64,000 nt of DNA, from the NCBI RefSeq assembly GCF_029761935.1, contig NZ_CP121699.1:372001-436000 (forward strand), read 5' to 3'. Shown piece after piece: positions 1,231 to 5,386 of the stretch. Below the pieces are notes generated by a model that was given only the letters and a program-made list of their open reading frames with translations, was not told the DNA's origin and did no database searches. How positions within the stretch are numbered: position 1 is the stretch's first letter; each line of letters begins with the position of its first letter. This DNA is from Microbacterium testaceum. Its GTDB lineage: Bacteria; Actinomycetota; Actinomycetes; Actinomycetales; Microbacteriaceae. The position numbers and the translations under genes are program-made.

Positions 1231-1716
1231 TTACGCGGCGAGGTGCGCGAACAGGAACCAACGGTCCTTGTCGAGACCGCGCTTGATCTCGATCGCCACA
1301 TCCTGGCTCGACATGTCGATCTCGTCGAGACCCTCGATGGCGGCTTCGATGTCGACGAGCACCGCGTCGATGTCGGCGATCACGGCGCGGATGACCACGT
1401 CGGACTGCGCGAAACCAGCGGGGATCTCAGTGGCCTTCGCCTTGGCGGCGACGGTCGACAGGCGCGAGTCGATGGGAAGACCCAGCGCGACGATGCGCTC
1501 AGCGGCCAGGTCGGCCCACTCCTGCGCGTGAGCGACAACCGAGTCGAGCAGCTCGTGCACGCCGATGAAGTTGGCGCCGCGGACGTGCCAGTGCGCCTGC
1601 TTGCCGTTGACGACGAGCGCCTCGAGGCCGATGACGACGGGGGAGAGGAACTGGGCGGTGCCGGCGGCCATCGTCGGGTCGACGGTGGTGGCGGCGGGGG
1701 TCTGGACGGTGCTCAT
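1231..1716 (-). CDS. dps: Dps family DNA-binding/ferritin-like protein
   Basis: This 161-residue protein should form a dodecameric mini-ferritin that oxidises Fe(II), stores iron and protects DNA under stress. The Dps inter-subunit ferroxidase site is complete and correctly spaced: His42, His54, Asp58, Asp69 and Glu73, within KQAHWHVRG, VHELLDS and DLAAER. The ATG is preceded by AAGGAG at good spacing. A DtxR/IdeR-like iron box lies about 75-90 bp upstream (1791-1806), consistent with iron-dependent control. The gene stands alone, convergent with the amidohydrolase gene. A short N-terminal tail (STVQTPAATTVDP) lacks the Lys-rich DNA-binding extension of E. coli Dps. Confidence 0.93.
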   Translation of the reverse strand: MSTVQTPAATTVDPTMAAGTAQFLSPVVIGLEALVVNGKQAHWHVRGANFIGVHELLDSVVAHAQEWADLAAERIVALGLPIDSRLSTVAAKAKATEIPAGFAQSDVVIRAVIADIDAVLVDIEAAIEGLDEIDMSSQDVAIEIKRGLDKDRWFLFAHLAA

Positions 1717-1790
1717 GGGTGCTCCTTAGGCGACGTTCGAAGTCTCGTTGGATGCAACGCTACTCACGTGGGAGCATTCCGCAAGCAAGA

Positions 1791-1806
1791 TGAGGCTCGG
1801 CTAAAT
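1791..1806. promoter_or_regulatory. Putative DtxR/IdeR-type iron box upstream of dps
   Basis: The + strand reads TGAGGCTCGGCTAAAT, matching about 11 of 15 positions of the actinobacterial iron box core TTAGGTTAGGCTAAC. It lies upstream of dps on the side of the adjoining signal-peptidase gene's 3' end. The match was judged by eye and the assignment is tentative. Confidence 0.4.
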
Positions 1807-1826
1807 CCCTGGTGAATAGGCAATCC

Positions 1827-3047
1827 TCACCTTCCTTGGTCCCGTCTCAGCCCCAGGGCGAGACCGAGGGTCACCACCGCGGCGGCTCCGGCGACGAGCA
1901 TTCCCCAGGGCGTTGATCGGATGCCGGTCCACGCGAGAGATCCTCCGGTGTGGGCCGGGTCCGCGAGGGTCGGACCGGGCTCTCCGGTCGGAGGGTCGGT
2001 CGCTGTCGCATCCGTGAGCCGGACGACGGGCGTCACGACGGCGTCAGCGTTGCGCGAGATGTTGCCGGAGGCGGCATCCATCCTCACTCCGAGGTCGACA
2101 CGCAGCGTGTCACCCGGCGCGATCACCGAGCTCACCCATTGGTCGCCCTGCGGCACCGGGGTCGAGGCCACGACCAGGGTGAGAGAGCGCGCGAACGAGA
2201 TGTCGCGCGGGTCCGTGTCGACGGGGGCGGTATCGAGGCGCAGCCCCGCCCGTGCCGGATCGGGACTCGCGTTTCTGATCCAGAGGGTGGAGGTGAGCGT
2301 GCCACCCGGAACGATGCGGTCCGGCTGGTCGAACAGACGCACCGCTCCGTCGGAGACGAAGCGCGCCCCATCGTCGCTCACGAGCAGCTGGCTGGACGAA
2401 GCCGATGCGGGAGCCGGCGTCAGCAGGGGAGCGGATGCCGTGACGAGGATCAGAGCGAACGCCGTGGTCGTTCTCCGGTGGCGATGCGAACGGAGGAGAT
2501 CGAAGATCAGCAGGACCAGGCCGTAGCCGACGACCGCGACACCGACCGCCGCGATGACGATCCCTCGCTCCTGTCCTCCGAAGATGATCCCCGGGTACCC
2601 GAGATACGGCACCGCGAAGACCACCGTCCCGCGAAGTTGCTCGCTCTGCACCGGGGGATCGTCGGCGTCGTTGGCGTCTCCGCGCGTGATCAGCAGCCGC
2701 GCGCCACCGGTGCTGCTGGTCGTGCCCACCACGCGGTGGGTTACCACGGCGGGTTCGCCCGAGCGCAGCTGATAGGTCACGACATCCCCGACCCTGACGT
2801 CGTCGATCGACGACGGGCGGACCGCGATCAACGTCCCCGGTGGCATGCCCGGTTGCATGCTCGCGGTCAGGACGGTGTACGTCTGCGCGCCGAGGAGCAG
2901 AGGGATCACCACGGTGATCAGGGCAAAAAGCGACACCGCGAAGAGAAGGACAGTGCCCACGATGGCGCGCGCCCGAGTCCACCTCGGCCGTTCCGGCGGC
3001 GGAGTGGTGGAGCCGGGAGTCCGGGGATCCTCGATCAGCTCTGACAT
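1827..3047 (-). CDS. SipW-like signal peptidase I fused to a secreted LAxTG-anchored domain
   Basis: A 406-residue fusion. Residues 27-52 form a membrane anchor. The S26 catalytic Ser63 lies in TASMQPGMPPG and the partner is His104 in VTHRVVG, so this is the Ser-His (ER/SipW-like) class rather than Ser-Lys. A second membrane segment spans 162-184. Residues 186-217 then look like a Sec signal peptide: a basic run RSHRHRR, a hydrophobic core, and an ASA-type cleavage site. The exported part (218-370) is beta-rich, followed by LAWTG at 371-375, a hydrophobic stretch and RRDQGR, which is a class E sortase signal. The gene overlaps the upstream gene by 13 bp and ends a four-gene operon of likely substrates. 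The ATG at 3047 is followed by a typical cytoplasmic N-terminus. Confidence 0.85.
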   Translation of the reverse strand: MSELIEDPRTPGSTTPPPERPRWTRARAIVGTVLLFAVSLFALITVVIPLLLGAQTYTVLTASMQPGMPPGTLIAVRPSSIDDVRVGDVVTYQLRSGEPAVVTHRVVGTTSSTGGARLLITRGDANDADDPPVQSEQLRGTVVFAVPYLGYPGIIFGGQERGIVIAAVGVAVVGYGLVLLIFDLLRSHRHRRTTTAFALILVTASAPLLTPAPASASSSQLLVSDDGARFVSDGAVRLFDQPDRIVPGGTLTSTLWIRNASPDPARAGLRLDTAPVDTDPRDISFARSLTLVVASTPVPQGDQWVSSVIAPGDTLRVDLGVRMDAASGNISRNADAVVTPVVRLTDATATDPPTGEPGPTLADPAHTGGSLAWTGIRSTPWGMLVAGAAAVVTLGLALGLRRDQGR

Positions 3048-3526
3048 GTGACGCCCCCGAGCAGTCCGCCGACCAGGCTGGAGAGGACGATGGGCTGCCC
3101 GTTGCTGGGCGGTGATGTCCACTTCTGGGTGACGGCGGTGACGGTGATCACGACAGTGCCGCCCTCGAGCAGCGCCCTCAGCACCGACGCCAGGAGCGAC
3201 GACAGCACAGAGCCGGTGATATCGATCGTCGTGGCGGTCACGCCCGTCGCGACCACCTGGGTGGCGCCGTTCGCGGAGTTCGTGGCGGTCACGGTGTACG
3301 ACGTCGCGTCGGTGATCGGGGACCACGAGATCTGCGCGTACGACGACAAGCCGAGTACCGCCGGCTTCGACGTGCACGTCGTGACGGGCGCCGCGAGTGC
3401 GGACGTGCTGAGCGAGAACGCCGGCGCGGAGGTGGACGCACGCCACGCGGCCGCGGCGGCGGTGGGCACGGCGAGCGCCAGGGCCAGGGCGGCCGCGAGG
3501 GCGACGACCGCACGACGACGGCTCAC
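3035..3526 (-). CDS. Secreted protein with FN3-like domain, SipW operon
   Basis: A 163-residue exported protein. It starts at GTG (3526), which shares GTGA with the stop of the preceding gene, indicating translational coupling. The N-terminus SRRRAVVAL plus an Ala/Leu core and AAAAAWRAS is a signal peptide. Residues about 45-140 resemble a fibronectin-III fold (ISWSPITDATSYTVT and a later VITVTAVTQ), with Cys near both ends of the mature protein (TTCTS and VTCQS) that might pair. Position between TasA-like genes and a SipW-like peptidase suggests a surface or matrix component. The FN3 call is inferred from pattern only. Confidence 0.75.
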   Translation of the reverse strand: MSRRRAVVALAAALALALAVPTAAAAAWRASTSAPAFSLSTSALAAPVTTCTSKPAVLGLSSYAQISWSPITDATSYTVTATNSANGATQVVATGVTATTIDITGSVLSSLLASVLRALLEGGTVVITVTAVTQKWTSPPSNGQPIVLSSLVGGLLGGVTCQS

Positions 3527-4044
3527 GACGTCGCCTGATCGACGGTGACGGTGATCTGCGGGGTGAGAGCAATCGCCTGGGTCGTGGACGGAGCATTCGG
3601 GTCGAGAGTGACGCGCAGGCACAGGTCGACCGACGCTCCGAGCGCGTATCCGCCAGCTGGGGCGTACCCACCCGCGGGCAGGGGCGTTCCCGTCCCGCAA
3701 GCCCCAACGAACACCTGTGTCGAGACGTATGGCGTGAGCGCTGCCGACACCGACGCCGCGGCGTTCACCCGCCAGCGCAACGTGTCACCCGACCCGGTCG
3801 CACTCACACGCAGGGCCGCGGTGTCGCTGGAGCGCCCCGGCACGAGCGGTTGCCACGCGCTCCAGCTCCCCGCCCAGCTCGCGGTCGCTCCGAGTGAGCC
3901 GGTCGAGGTCACCCCAGCGGTGACCGGGTGGCGGTCCGACCAGACGGCGTGTGCCGCCAGTGTGCCGGGGCCCAGCACGAGCGCTGCGACGAGGACCGCG
4001 GTCCACCGGACGCGCCGTGGAACGCGATCGTCGCGACGGTGCAT
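3523..4044 (-). CDS. SipW-dependent-type exported protein (TasA/CalY-like)
   Basis: 173 residues. A basic N-terminus (MHRRDDRVPRRVRW) precedes a hydrophobic segment and the motif AHAVWSDRH, which resembles the alternate signal peptides (A-x-W-S-D) cut by SipW-like peptidases. The mature part is Ser/Thr/Ala-rich with a GACG...LCLRV Cys pair. It begins 10 bp after the upstream gene and overlaps the downstream one by 4 bp. Probably secreted or assembled at the surface; polymerisation as in TasA fibres cannot be shown from sequence. Confidence 0.75.
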   Translation of the reverse strand: MHRRDDRVPRRVRWTAVLVAALVLGPGTLAAHAVWSDRHPVTAGVTSTGSLGATASWAGSWSAWQPLVPGRSSDTAALRVSATGSGDTLRWRVNAAASVSAALTPYVSTQVFVGACGTGTPLPAGGYAPAGGYALGASVDLCLRVTLDPNAPSTTQAIALTPQITVTVDQATS

Positions 4045-4054
4045 GGGTCGTTCC

Positions 4055-4648
4055 TCAGCTGGAGGCCTGGGTCAGCGAGAACGCGAGCTGGTTGAGGTCT
4101 ACGGGGGTGTTCACGCCCACGAGGTTGGGGGTCGTCGAATCGAAGGTGACCGTGACGGTGGCGGTCAGGGTTCCGGCCGTGGCGGGAGTCACGCGATAGG
4201 TGTTGGTCCCCGTCTGCGCGCCCAGGCCGGTGATGTTCACCGCGACCTTCACGTAGGGGGCTGCGGGACCCGTGACGAAGCTGGCGCCCTGGGTGACCGC
4301 GAGGTCGGCGGCCAGGGTGTCGCCGACGAGGGTGACGGTCACCGGCTGTGTGAGCGTGAGCACGTCGCCGGGGACGATCTTGACGTTGGTGAGGTTCGAC
4401 ACCGACGTCGCCTGCCCGAGGACTCCCTTCAGGCTCCACGAGCCCGTGCCGAGCGACAGGGCGAGGTTCCCGGAACTCACGGTCCCCGCGGTCAACGCGG
4501 TCTGCGTGCTCCAGAACGCGTAGGTGCCGCCCCCGCCGAGAAGCAGGGTCGTGCCGGCCGCGATCGCGAGGATCGCCTTGGTGCGGCGGTGTCGCCGGGC
4601 CGGGCGGTCGGCGCGGGTGCGGGTAGCGGGTTCGGTCGACTGCGACAT
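4055..4648 (-). CDS. Alternate-type signal peptide protein (TasA/CalY-like)
   Basis: 197 residues and first gene of the SipW-like operon. After a basic stretch ([10 protein letters not shown]), residues 25-42 are hydrophobic and are followed by GTYAFWSTQ at 41-49, the hallmark of the alternate (SipW-dependent) signal-peptide family in actinobacteria. The mature domain is a Thr/Val-rich beta protein with strands such as VTVTLVGDTLAADLAV. TasA/CalY homologues form extracellular fibres with their dedicated peptidase; a similar role here is inference. The start lies about 100-140 bp from the CTCGGTAG repeats at 4752-4791. Confidence 0.8.
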   Translation of the reverse strand: MSQSTEPATRTRADRPARRHRRTKAILAIAAGTTLLLGGGGTYAFWSTQTALTAGTVSSGNLALSLGTGSWSLKGVLGQATSVSNLTNVKIVPGDVLTLTQPVTVTLVGDTLAADLAVTQGASFVTGPAAPYVKVAVNITGLGAQTGTNTYRVTPATAGTLTATVTVTFDSTTPNLVGVNTPVDLNQLAFSLTQASS

Positions 4649-4751
4649 GAGGTCTCCAAGGGCGATGCGGGTGTGGTGGGACCGAAACTATGAGCCGTGA
4701 TCAGGATCGCCGCTACTGATCCGCGGGCCGGAGCTACGGTGTTCGTCCGCG

Positions 4752-4791
4752 CTCGGTAGTGCTCTCGCGCTTCTCGGTAGCTCCTCGGTAG
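4752..4791. promoter_or_regulatory. Three helically phased CTCGGTAG direct repeats
   Basis: CTCGGTAG occurs at 4752-4759, 4773-4780 and 4784-4791, with start-to-start spacing of 21 and 11 bp (two turns and one turn). This is the layout of a cooperative OmpR-type activator site. It lies between the divergent SipW/TasA-like operon and the carbonic anhydrase gene, just upstream of the latter's -10 element, so it could control either. Confidence 0.55.
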
Positions 4792-4794
4792 GGC

Positions 4795-4800
4795 TAGCCT
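4795..4800 (+). promoter_or_regulatory. -10 element (TAGCCT) of a leaderless promoter
   Basis: TAGCCT fits the actinobacterial TANNNT -10 consensus and ends 7 bp before the ATG at 4808, so the transcript should begin at or next to the start codon. Confidence 0.6.
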
Positions 4801-4807
4801 CGGGCTC

Positions 4808-5386
4808 ATGCCGATCGCCCTCGATGCCTCTGTTGTCGCTCTCAGCGGAGCCGCTCCGAGCCTGCACGACACCGCGTTCGTGGCATCCGGTGCGCGCATC
4901 ATCGGCGATGTCACTCTCGGCGAACAGGCCAGCGTCTGGTACAACGCCGTCGTGCGCGGTGACAGCGCGCGCATCGTCCTCGGCGCACGCAGCAATCTGC
5001 AGGACAACGTGTCGGTGCACGTCGACGCCGGGCGCCCGGTCACTATCGGTGCCGACGTCTCGGTGGGGCACAACGCCGTTGTGCACGGCTGCACGATCGG
5101 CGACGGCTCGTTGATCGGTATGGGCAGCGTCGTCCTGTCGGGCGCCGACATCGGTCCCGGATGCCTGATCGCCGGGGGAGCTGTCGTGCTCGAGGGCACC
5201 GTCATCCCCGAGGGGTCGCTGGTCGCGGGCGTCCCCGCGAAGGTGAGGCGTGCGCTCACGCCGGAGGAGCGGGCGAAGATCCTCCGTAACGCGCAGACGT
5301 ATCTCGCGCACGTCGAACGCCACGGCTCGGCGACGCGGATTCAGGATGCCGCAACCCCGGCGGACGGCGAGAGTTCCGGCGCGTAA
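4808..5386 (+). CDS. Gamma-class carbonic anhydrase-like (left-handed beta-helix) protein
   Basis: A 192-residue hexapeptide-repeat protein. Repeats typical of the left-handed beta-helix run from about residue 25 to 145 (for example ASVWYNAVVRGD, VSVGHNAVVHGC, SLIGMGSVVLSG). The gamma-CA metal ligands appear as His in VHVDAG, VGHNAV and AVVHGC. The family is a trimeric metalloenzyme hydrating CO2, though many bacterial members have no proven activity. The C-terminal helix (LTPEERAKILRNAQTYL) is typical. No Shine-Dalgarno is seen; a leaderless promoter explains the start. Confidence 0.88.
   Translation: MPIALDASVVALSGAAPSLHDTAFVASGARIIGDVTLGEQASVWYNAVVRGDSARIVLGARSNLQDNVSVHVDAGRPVTIGADVSVGHNAVVHGCTIGDGSLIGMGSVVLSGADIGPGCLIAGGAVVLEGTVIPEGSLVAGVPAKVRRALTPEERAKILRNAQTYLAHVERHGSATRIQDAATPADGESSGA

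Follow-up and report, generated by a model that had tools for sequence, protein, structure and literature searches.

A SipW-like signal peptidase fused to a predicted sortase-anchored surface domain in Microbacterium testaceum

SipW operons and the locus of Microbacterium testaceum

In the literature surveyed, fibres of the TasA kind are described in Bacillus, Clostridium and archaea. In the tapA-sipW-tasA operon of Bacillus subtilis, the stop codon of tapA overlaps the start codon of sipW, and TapA starts the TasA fibres (PMC10151520). We analysed a window of 64,000 nucleotides of Microbacterium testaceum (contig NZ_CP121699.1, positions 372,001 to 436,000). The operon studied here ends with a gene in which a SipW-like signal peptidase and a domain with a predicted sorting signal for sortase form one open frame. 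Three small exported proteins (S1, S2 and S3) are encoded upstream in the same operon.

As in tapA-sipW-tasA, an archaeal or endoplasmic reticulum (ER)-type signal peptidase is encoded beside small exported proteins with an aromatic residue at P2', and in the split relatives of the locus the peptidase gene overlaps an accessory-protein gene by stop and start codons (PMC10151520, PMC10269814). Unlike in B. subtilis, the accessory protein comes after the peptidase, is fused to it and carries a sortase signal at its end; we found no match to TapA by sequence, and the fold match between S1 and TasA is weak. In the sipW-bsaABCRSD operon of Clostridium perfringens, SipW is required for export of the fibre protein and a sortase gene flanks the operon, but this sortase gene is dispensable for BsaA polymers, BsaA has no LPXTG motif and no fusion is described (PMC7395162). 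The Streptomyces chaplins, which are class E sortase substrates, share with our protein an LAxTG signal and a class E sortase in the genome; however, no peptidase on the substrate chain is described there (PMC5148588), and most relatives of the fused protein have LPxTG. Finally, SipA of the Streptococcus pyogenes pili, termed signal-peptidase-like and essential for pilus polymerisation, shows 14% identity with the fused protein over 92 residues.

In the literature on SipW, TasA, TapA, BsaA and class E sortases, where our search was thin on subscription papers and preprints, we found no description of a SipW-like peptidase fused to a sortase-signal protein, in line with a preliminary description of this DNA made from the sequence alone, nor of an actinobacterial SipW operon. 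We regard the locus, with its peptidase fused to a sortase-signal partner, as a variation on the known SipW operons.

Architecture, conservation and origin of the fused gene

The fused gene lies on the minus strand (3047..1827, ATG at 3047, stop codon ending at 1827) and encodes 406 residues without an internal stop; the plus strand of 1827-3047 does not encode it. The uninterrupted frame with an S26 peptidase announced by the preliminary description, which gave no strand, is thus present. Its peptidase half matches TIGR02228 (sigpep_I_arch; 85 bits, cut-off 51.85; residues 33-173) and Peptidase_S26 (24.3 bits, cut-off 22.9). Because the score against the Bacillus SipW model NF046067 (65.7 bits) is below the cut-off of 190, we call this peptidase SipW-like and not SipW. 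It has a Ser-His pair instead of Ser-Lys, which is the mark of ER-type signal peptidases (PMC10269814). In the source annotation, the named fused relatives are called "signal peptidase I" and one "hypothetical protein"; the former label conceals half of each fused protein.

A protein search retrieved 95 relatives of the fused protein. From P0001 and these 95 sequences, a family alignment of 54 members, including this protein, was made. It leaves aside P0042, P0049, P0055, P0056 and P0057 (short, chimeric, frameshifted or cut), as well as the solo peptidases and distant matches P0058-P0096, except P0074 and P0081. Ser63, His104, Asp124, Asp130, Leu371 and Gly375 are identical in all 54 members. 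The second signal peptide (basic run, hydrophobic core, ASA) was also recognised, with Ala at -1 in 53 and at -3 in 52 of the members, and an LxxTG-type motif stands within the last 60 residues of every member (position 374 is Thr in 53 and Ser in 1). The alignment contains homologues combining the peptidase with an LxxTG-type end, for which the preliminary description had proposed a search.

Structure predictions were run for S1 and for the full-length fused protein, the C-terminal domain being modelled only within the full-length chain; the alignment used for folding held 51 of the 54 members and 7 solo peptidases. A beta-rich domain had been expected and was predicted at residues 221-346, with a block value of 86-97 for the predicted local distance difference test (pLDDT). 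The join between the two halves has a low model confidence, with a short helix at 194-204. The end of the chain comprises LAWTG (371-375), a helix (381-405) and RR close to the C-terminus.

Within the genus, 222 of 366 Microbacterium genomes have some match to the fused protein, and in 15 of 366 the peptidase and the C half share an open frame, as checked by profile at each locus; G344 and G130 also appear fused, but are unchecked and not counted among the 15. Matches to S1, S2 and S3 were found upstream in all 15 fused genomes. The preliminary description held that a frameshift or missing stop between the domains, or homologues lacking the internal signal and the LAxTG end, would speak against a fusion. 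Neither check refuted the fusion, but two genomes depart from the pattern: a frameshift directly behind the signal peptide breaks the fused gene of G322, and G142 has the peptidase in the same operon with no detectable C half. The frameshift in G322 is what would favour a sequencing error or a chance read-through of two genes as the source of the fused frame. We consider this extremely improbable. The sequencing-error reading is already contradicted, because independent genomes carry the fusion, and the frame is continuous in the 15 genus genomes and the 54 aligned proteins.

We also compared the gene with that of M. testaceum NBRC 12675 (L032). The ratio of nonsynonymous to synonymous substitution rates (Ka/Ks) is 0.19 for the whole fused frame, 0.10 for the peptidase, 0.21 for the C domain, 0.24 for the linker and sorting end and 0.49 for the N-terminal 24 residues. 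The value of 0.33 for the junction with the signal also argues against a chance read-through. These ratios indicate that all parts of the frame are under purifying selection, and together the data indicate that the fusion is a real, conserved single chain and not an artefact. A translational restart at the join was considered and rejected: no in-frame ATG, GTG or TTG is present there in this gene, and other fused loci have some start codons, with no position common to all.

Used alone as a protein query, the C half retrieved only 3 proteins, so split partners were sought through DNA loci. Scanning named genomes confirmed 276 loci, and the 80 best were retained; the split or fused state was assigned with separate profiles for the two halves. 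The halves are adjoining separate genes in loci of Cellulomonas, Rhodococcus, Arthrobacter and Nocardioides, and there the separate C half carries a signal peptide of its own. Of the 98 peptidase rows in a tree, 13 are fused; in 36 the C gene follows the peptidase, in 8 it precedes it and in 41 none was found (in one of them, L041, solely because the contig ends); L035, a copy of L002, is outside this tree. Among the 35 loci whose C domain starts at most 200 bases from the peptidase stop, the start codon of the C gene overlaps this stop in 34, by four bases in 29 (ATGA or GTGA, TTGA in L045) and by one base in 5 (TAATG or TGATG), the exception being L014. L091, with a distance of 300 bases, counts as split in the tree and lies outside these 35 loci. 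As the 34 overlapping pairs have one shared shifted frame, a small insertion or deletion could join the halves.

The 12 fused Microbacterium-type rows and L041 form one clade (support 100/98), adjoining the split Cellulomonas (94/79), and the fused Myceligenerans salitolerans groups with the split Isoptericola (97/92). The overlaps and the tree support a fusion of two genes, as suggested in the preliminary description, and the tree indicates at least two separate origins. Further fused forms were found in Promicromonospora thailandica (P0099) and Myceligenerans cantabricum (P0081). More than two origins were considered on a quick tree, from which L041 was dropped and which separates P0074 and P0104 from both fused groups; it was not relied on, because several fused labels rest on a weak first-listed domain match.

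The coordinates of the fused gene, its parts and the upstream genes are given in Table 1. Beyond the end of the fused gene, a neighbour at 1231-1716 on the minus strand presumably encodes a Dps-type protein, judging by eye.

Table 1. Features of the operon in the window
Feature	Position	Strand	Basis
S1: TIGR04089 exported protein, SipW-type site TYA/FW, proposed fibre subunit	4055..4648	-	126.5 bits (cut-off 60); structure model and fold search
S2: distant relative of S1, site AHA/VW	3523..4044	-	No family match; found with the S1 profile
S3: small exported protein, site AAA/AW	3035..3526	-	Matches upstream in 15/15 fused genus loci
Fused gene: SipW-like signal peptidase and sortase-signal surface domain	1827..3047	-	406 residues, single copy in the genome
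First predicted transmembrane helix, residues 22-52	2892..2984	-	Helix in structure model; presumed membrane role
Catalytic domain, residues 53-156 (Ser63, His104, Asp124, Asp130)	2580..2891	-	TIGR02228; conservation 54/54; signal peptidase matches of the model
Second predicted transmembrane helix, residues 158-187	2487..2576	-	Helix in structure model; presumed membrane role
Putative internal signal peptide, residues 188-216 (basic run, hydrophobic core, A-S-A)	2400..2486	-	Sequence; conserved -3/-1
C-terminal beta domain, residues 217-346	2010..2399	-	Structure model; homologous to a separate adjoining gene in relatives
Predicted sorting signal, residues 371-406 (LAWTG, hydrophobic helix, basic end)	1830..1937	-	Sequence; LxxTG-type motif 54/54

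Proposed cleavage, anchoring and role

The preliminary description had missed the upstream proteins, the split relatives and the further fused peptidase that this genome encodes. S1 scores below the cut-off of TIGR04088 (14.6 vs. 19), and S1-type genes were found by profile across the loci. A Foldseek search with the S1 model gave the TasA fibre as best, weak match (E 0.015), and the S1 profile gave only doubtful matches to solved structures (PBP4, E 0.0024; archaeal AbpX, E 0.54). For the C domain, the profile search against solved structures returned nothing usable (best E 0.01, to a coat protein), and TapA is absent among the 50 listed structure matches of the full-length model. The start codon of S3 was picked by its overlap with S2; this protein has no Pfam match and no meaningful NCBIfam match. 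A scan of positions 1700-4900 found no promoter or terminator.

The cleavage sites of the two groups of proteins differ. Trp, the mark of a SipW-type site, occupies P2' in all 50 S1 relatives, hand-picked from 199 stretches, whereas an aromatic P2' is found at the internal signal site of none of the 54 fused members and, by a rough rule, in 3 of 44 separate C partners. The internal signal therefore looks like an ordinary Sec signal, and Ala kept at -1 and -3 is what is expected if it is cut. The genome encodes a LepB-type signal peptidase I (SPase I; 128 bits). Given this enzyme and the ordinary A-x-A site, we think that the peptidase half serves S1-S3 and that the housekeeping enzyme is the likeliest to release the C domain.

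The preliminary description had raised the possibility that the peptidase acts on the signal peptide within its own chain. The fused protein would then be a self-processing polyprotein, whose peptidase, working in cis or on a second copy, would cut the signal of the C half and free the anchor. As halves of a single chain, the two parts would come together at the outer face of the membrane, the A-x-A site is conserved, and other such peptidases occur fused to tails that have a genuine SipW-type site, so that peptidase-substrate fusion recurs. Against this stand the contrast in P2' residues between the fused members, or the separate C partners, and the S1 relatives, and the LepB-type enzyme encoded in the genome. 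Self-cleavage of this signal is possible but not favoured, and we judge the polyprotein unlikely. The internal segment might also stay uncut as a third membrane helix, the C domain remaining tied to the peptidase and sortase linking the whole chain to the wall. The low model confidence at the join and its short helix would fit such an arrangement; yet the conserved A-x-A and the signal peptides of the split C halves make it very unlikely.

Regarding anchoring, the preliminary description proposed a class E sortase signal. LAWTG, the helix and RR are indeed present, but no anchor model matches this protein and class E is inferred from LAWTG, since class E sortases use LAXTG (PMC5148588). The sortase E gene that it proposed to look for was found at G000:C1:2129098-2129487 (NF033747, 236.3 bits, cut-off 160). 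Two results weigh against this assignment: the C half of this protein has no Pfam or NCBIfam match at E<=1, LPXTG models included, and most relatives in the aligned list have LPxTG and not LAxTG. The sorting signal of this C half therefore rests on the motif and its conservation. Among the 22 C halves scanned, of 61 listed, anchor models matched at E<=1 in 8 (PF00746), 11 (NF058582) and 10 (TIGR01167) cases. Among the separate C partners, 29 of 44 have an LxxTG end by our rule and 15 do not. The Rhodococcus partners L045, L047, L048, L052, L053, L055 and L072 keep the C domain with the LxxTG end absent by this rule.

Two other sortase-related genes were seen in the same genome. L113:1165-2124:+ is sortase-like (58.1 bits vs. 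the class E cut-off of 160), and its match covers just the initial part of the profile. L112:1495-3132:- has a class F sortase at the chain end (178 bits, cut-off 166), and its first part resembles the endoglucanase BcsZ (121.7 bits, below the cut-off of 299). Elsewhere, P0088 of Pseudobutyrivibrio sp. UC1225 apparently fuses a SipW-like peptidase domain to a class B sortase domain (PF04203).

We propose, at close to an even chance, that the fused protein combines export and anchoring in an actinobacterial operon for TasA-like fibres. The chain would cross the membrane outward and back, and the internal signal peptide would then export the C-terminal domain. The peptidase half would remain in the membrane and cut S1-S3; the internal signal would be cleaved behind A-S-A, for which the housekeeping LepB-type SPase I is the likeliest enzyme, and the class E sortase would link the released C domain to the wall at LAWTG. 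Thus fixed, this domain would be the base or starter of the S1 fibre, in a TapA-like role. A wall-fixed domain that stays by the peptidase and leaves the cell together with the fibre subunits would be a natural base or starter, and the fusion would set one anchor per peptidase, both at a single exit site.

The C domain could instead be an unrelated surface adhesin or a peptidase helper merely sharing the operon. No named family was found for it in Pfam or NCBIfam, where its relatives gave only anchor motifs and single stray matches. Ig-like folds are common, and about a third of the separate partners lack the sorting signal. On the other side, the C gene is tied to the peptidase by overlap in nearly all split loci and S1-type genes occur across the loci, and we find this alternative rather unlikely.

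The operon points to a system in many Actinobacteria that parallels the TasA kind, adds anchoring by sortase and, in this case, unites the peptidase and the presumed anchor in a single chain. The fusion reveals which small protein partners which peptidase, and makes it possible to test directly if a signal peptidase can act on the chain to which it belongs. The bearers include some soil and plant bacteria, where a role in biofilm fibres is probable.

Other peptidase-tail fusions

The genome of our strain contains three TIGR02228 matches, including the fused gene. One of them, L116:955-1947:- (near G000:C1:2544215; 51.9 bits vs. 51.85; no Pfam match at E<=0.1), consists of a peptidase, a second signal and a secreted tail with the SipW-type site PAAA/SF. 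Beside it, L116:1955-2542:- encodes a camelysin-like exported protein (PF12389, 22.6 bits, cut-off 22.5). Tails of at least 150 residues also occur in other loci, on 27 frames whose peptidase match is weaker. A SipW-type site (e.g. TWAAW, QAAF) was recognised by eye in 15 of these 27; a regular expression flagged 18, some wrongly. Such long exported tails behind a second signal are found on second paralogues close to the split pairs in loci of the Rhodococcus, Nocardioides and Arthrobacter type (L045:7628-9292, L071:7123-8895, L109:7227-8891, L060:7701-8897 and others). The fusions to tails with a SipW-type site are better candidates for self-cleavage than the gene at 3047..1827.

A wider reading, which is possible but which we hold with more doubt, has two parts. 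Actinobacteria would have an undescribed, often sortase-anchored TasA-like fibre system, whose SipW-like peptidase and wall anchor form an overlapping pair that fused at least twice. In addition, peptidase-substrate fusion would be a general tactic, with true self-cleavers among the second paralogues (L116 and the Nocardioides, Arthrobacter and Rhodococcus loci). Lastly, three distant SipW-like peptidases, L021:1483-2679 (G011), L026:769-2685 (G034) and P0093, appear to be joined to tails with LxxTG motifs at the end (LAPTG, LAGTG, LAWTG), and are possibly further fusions of the same kind.
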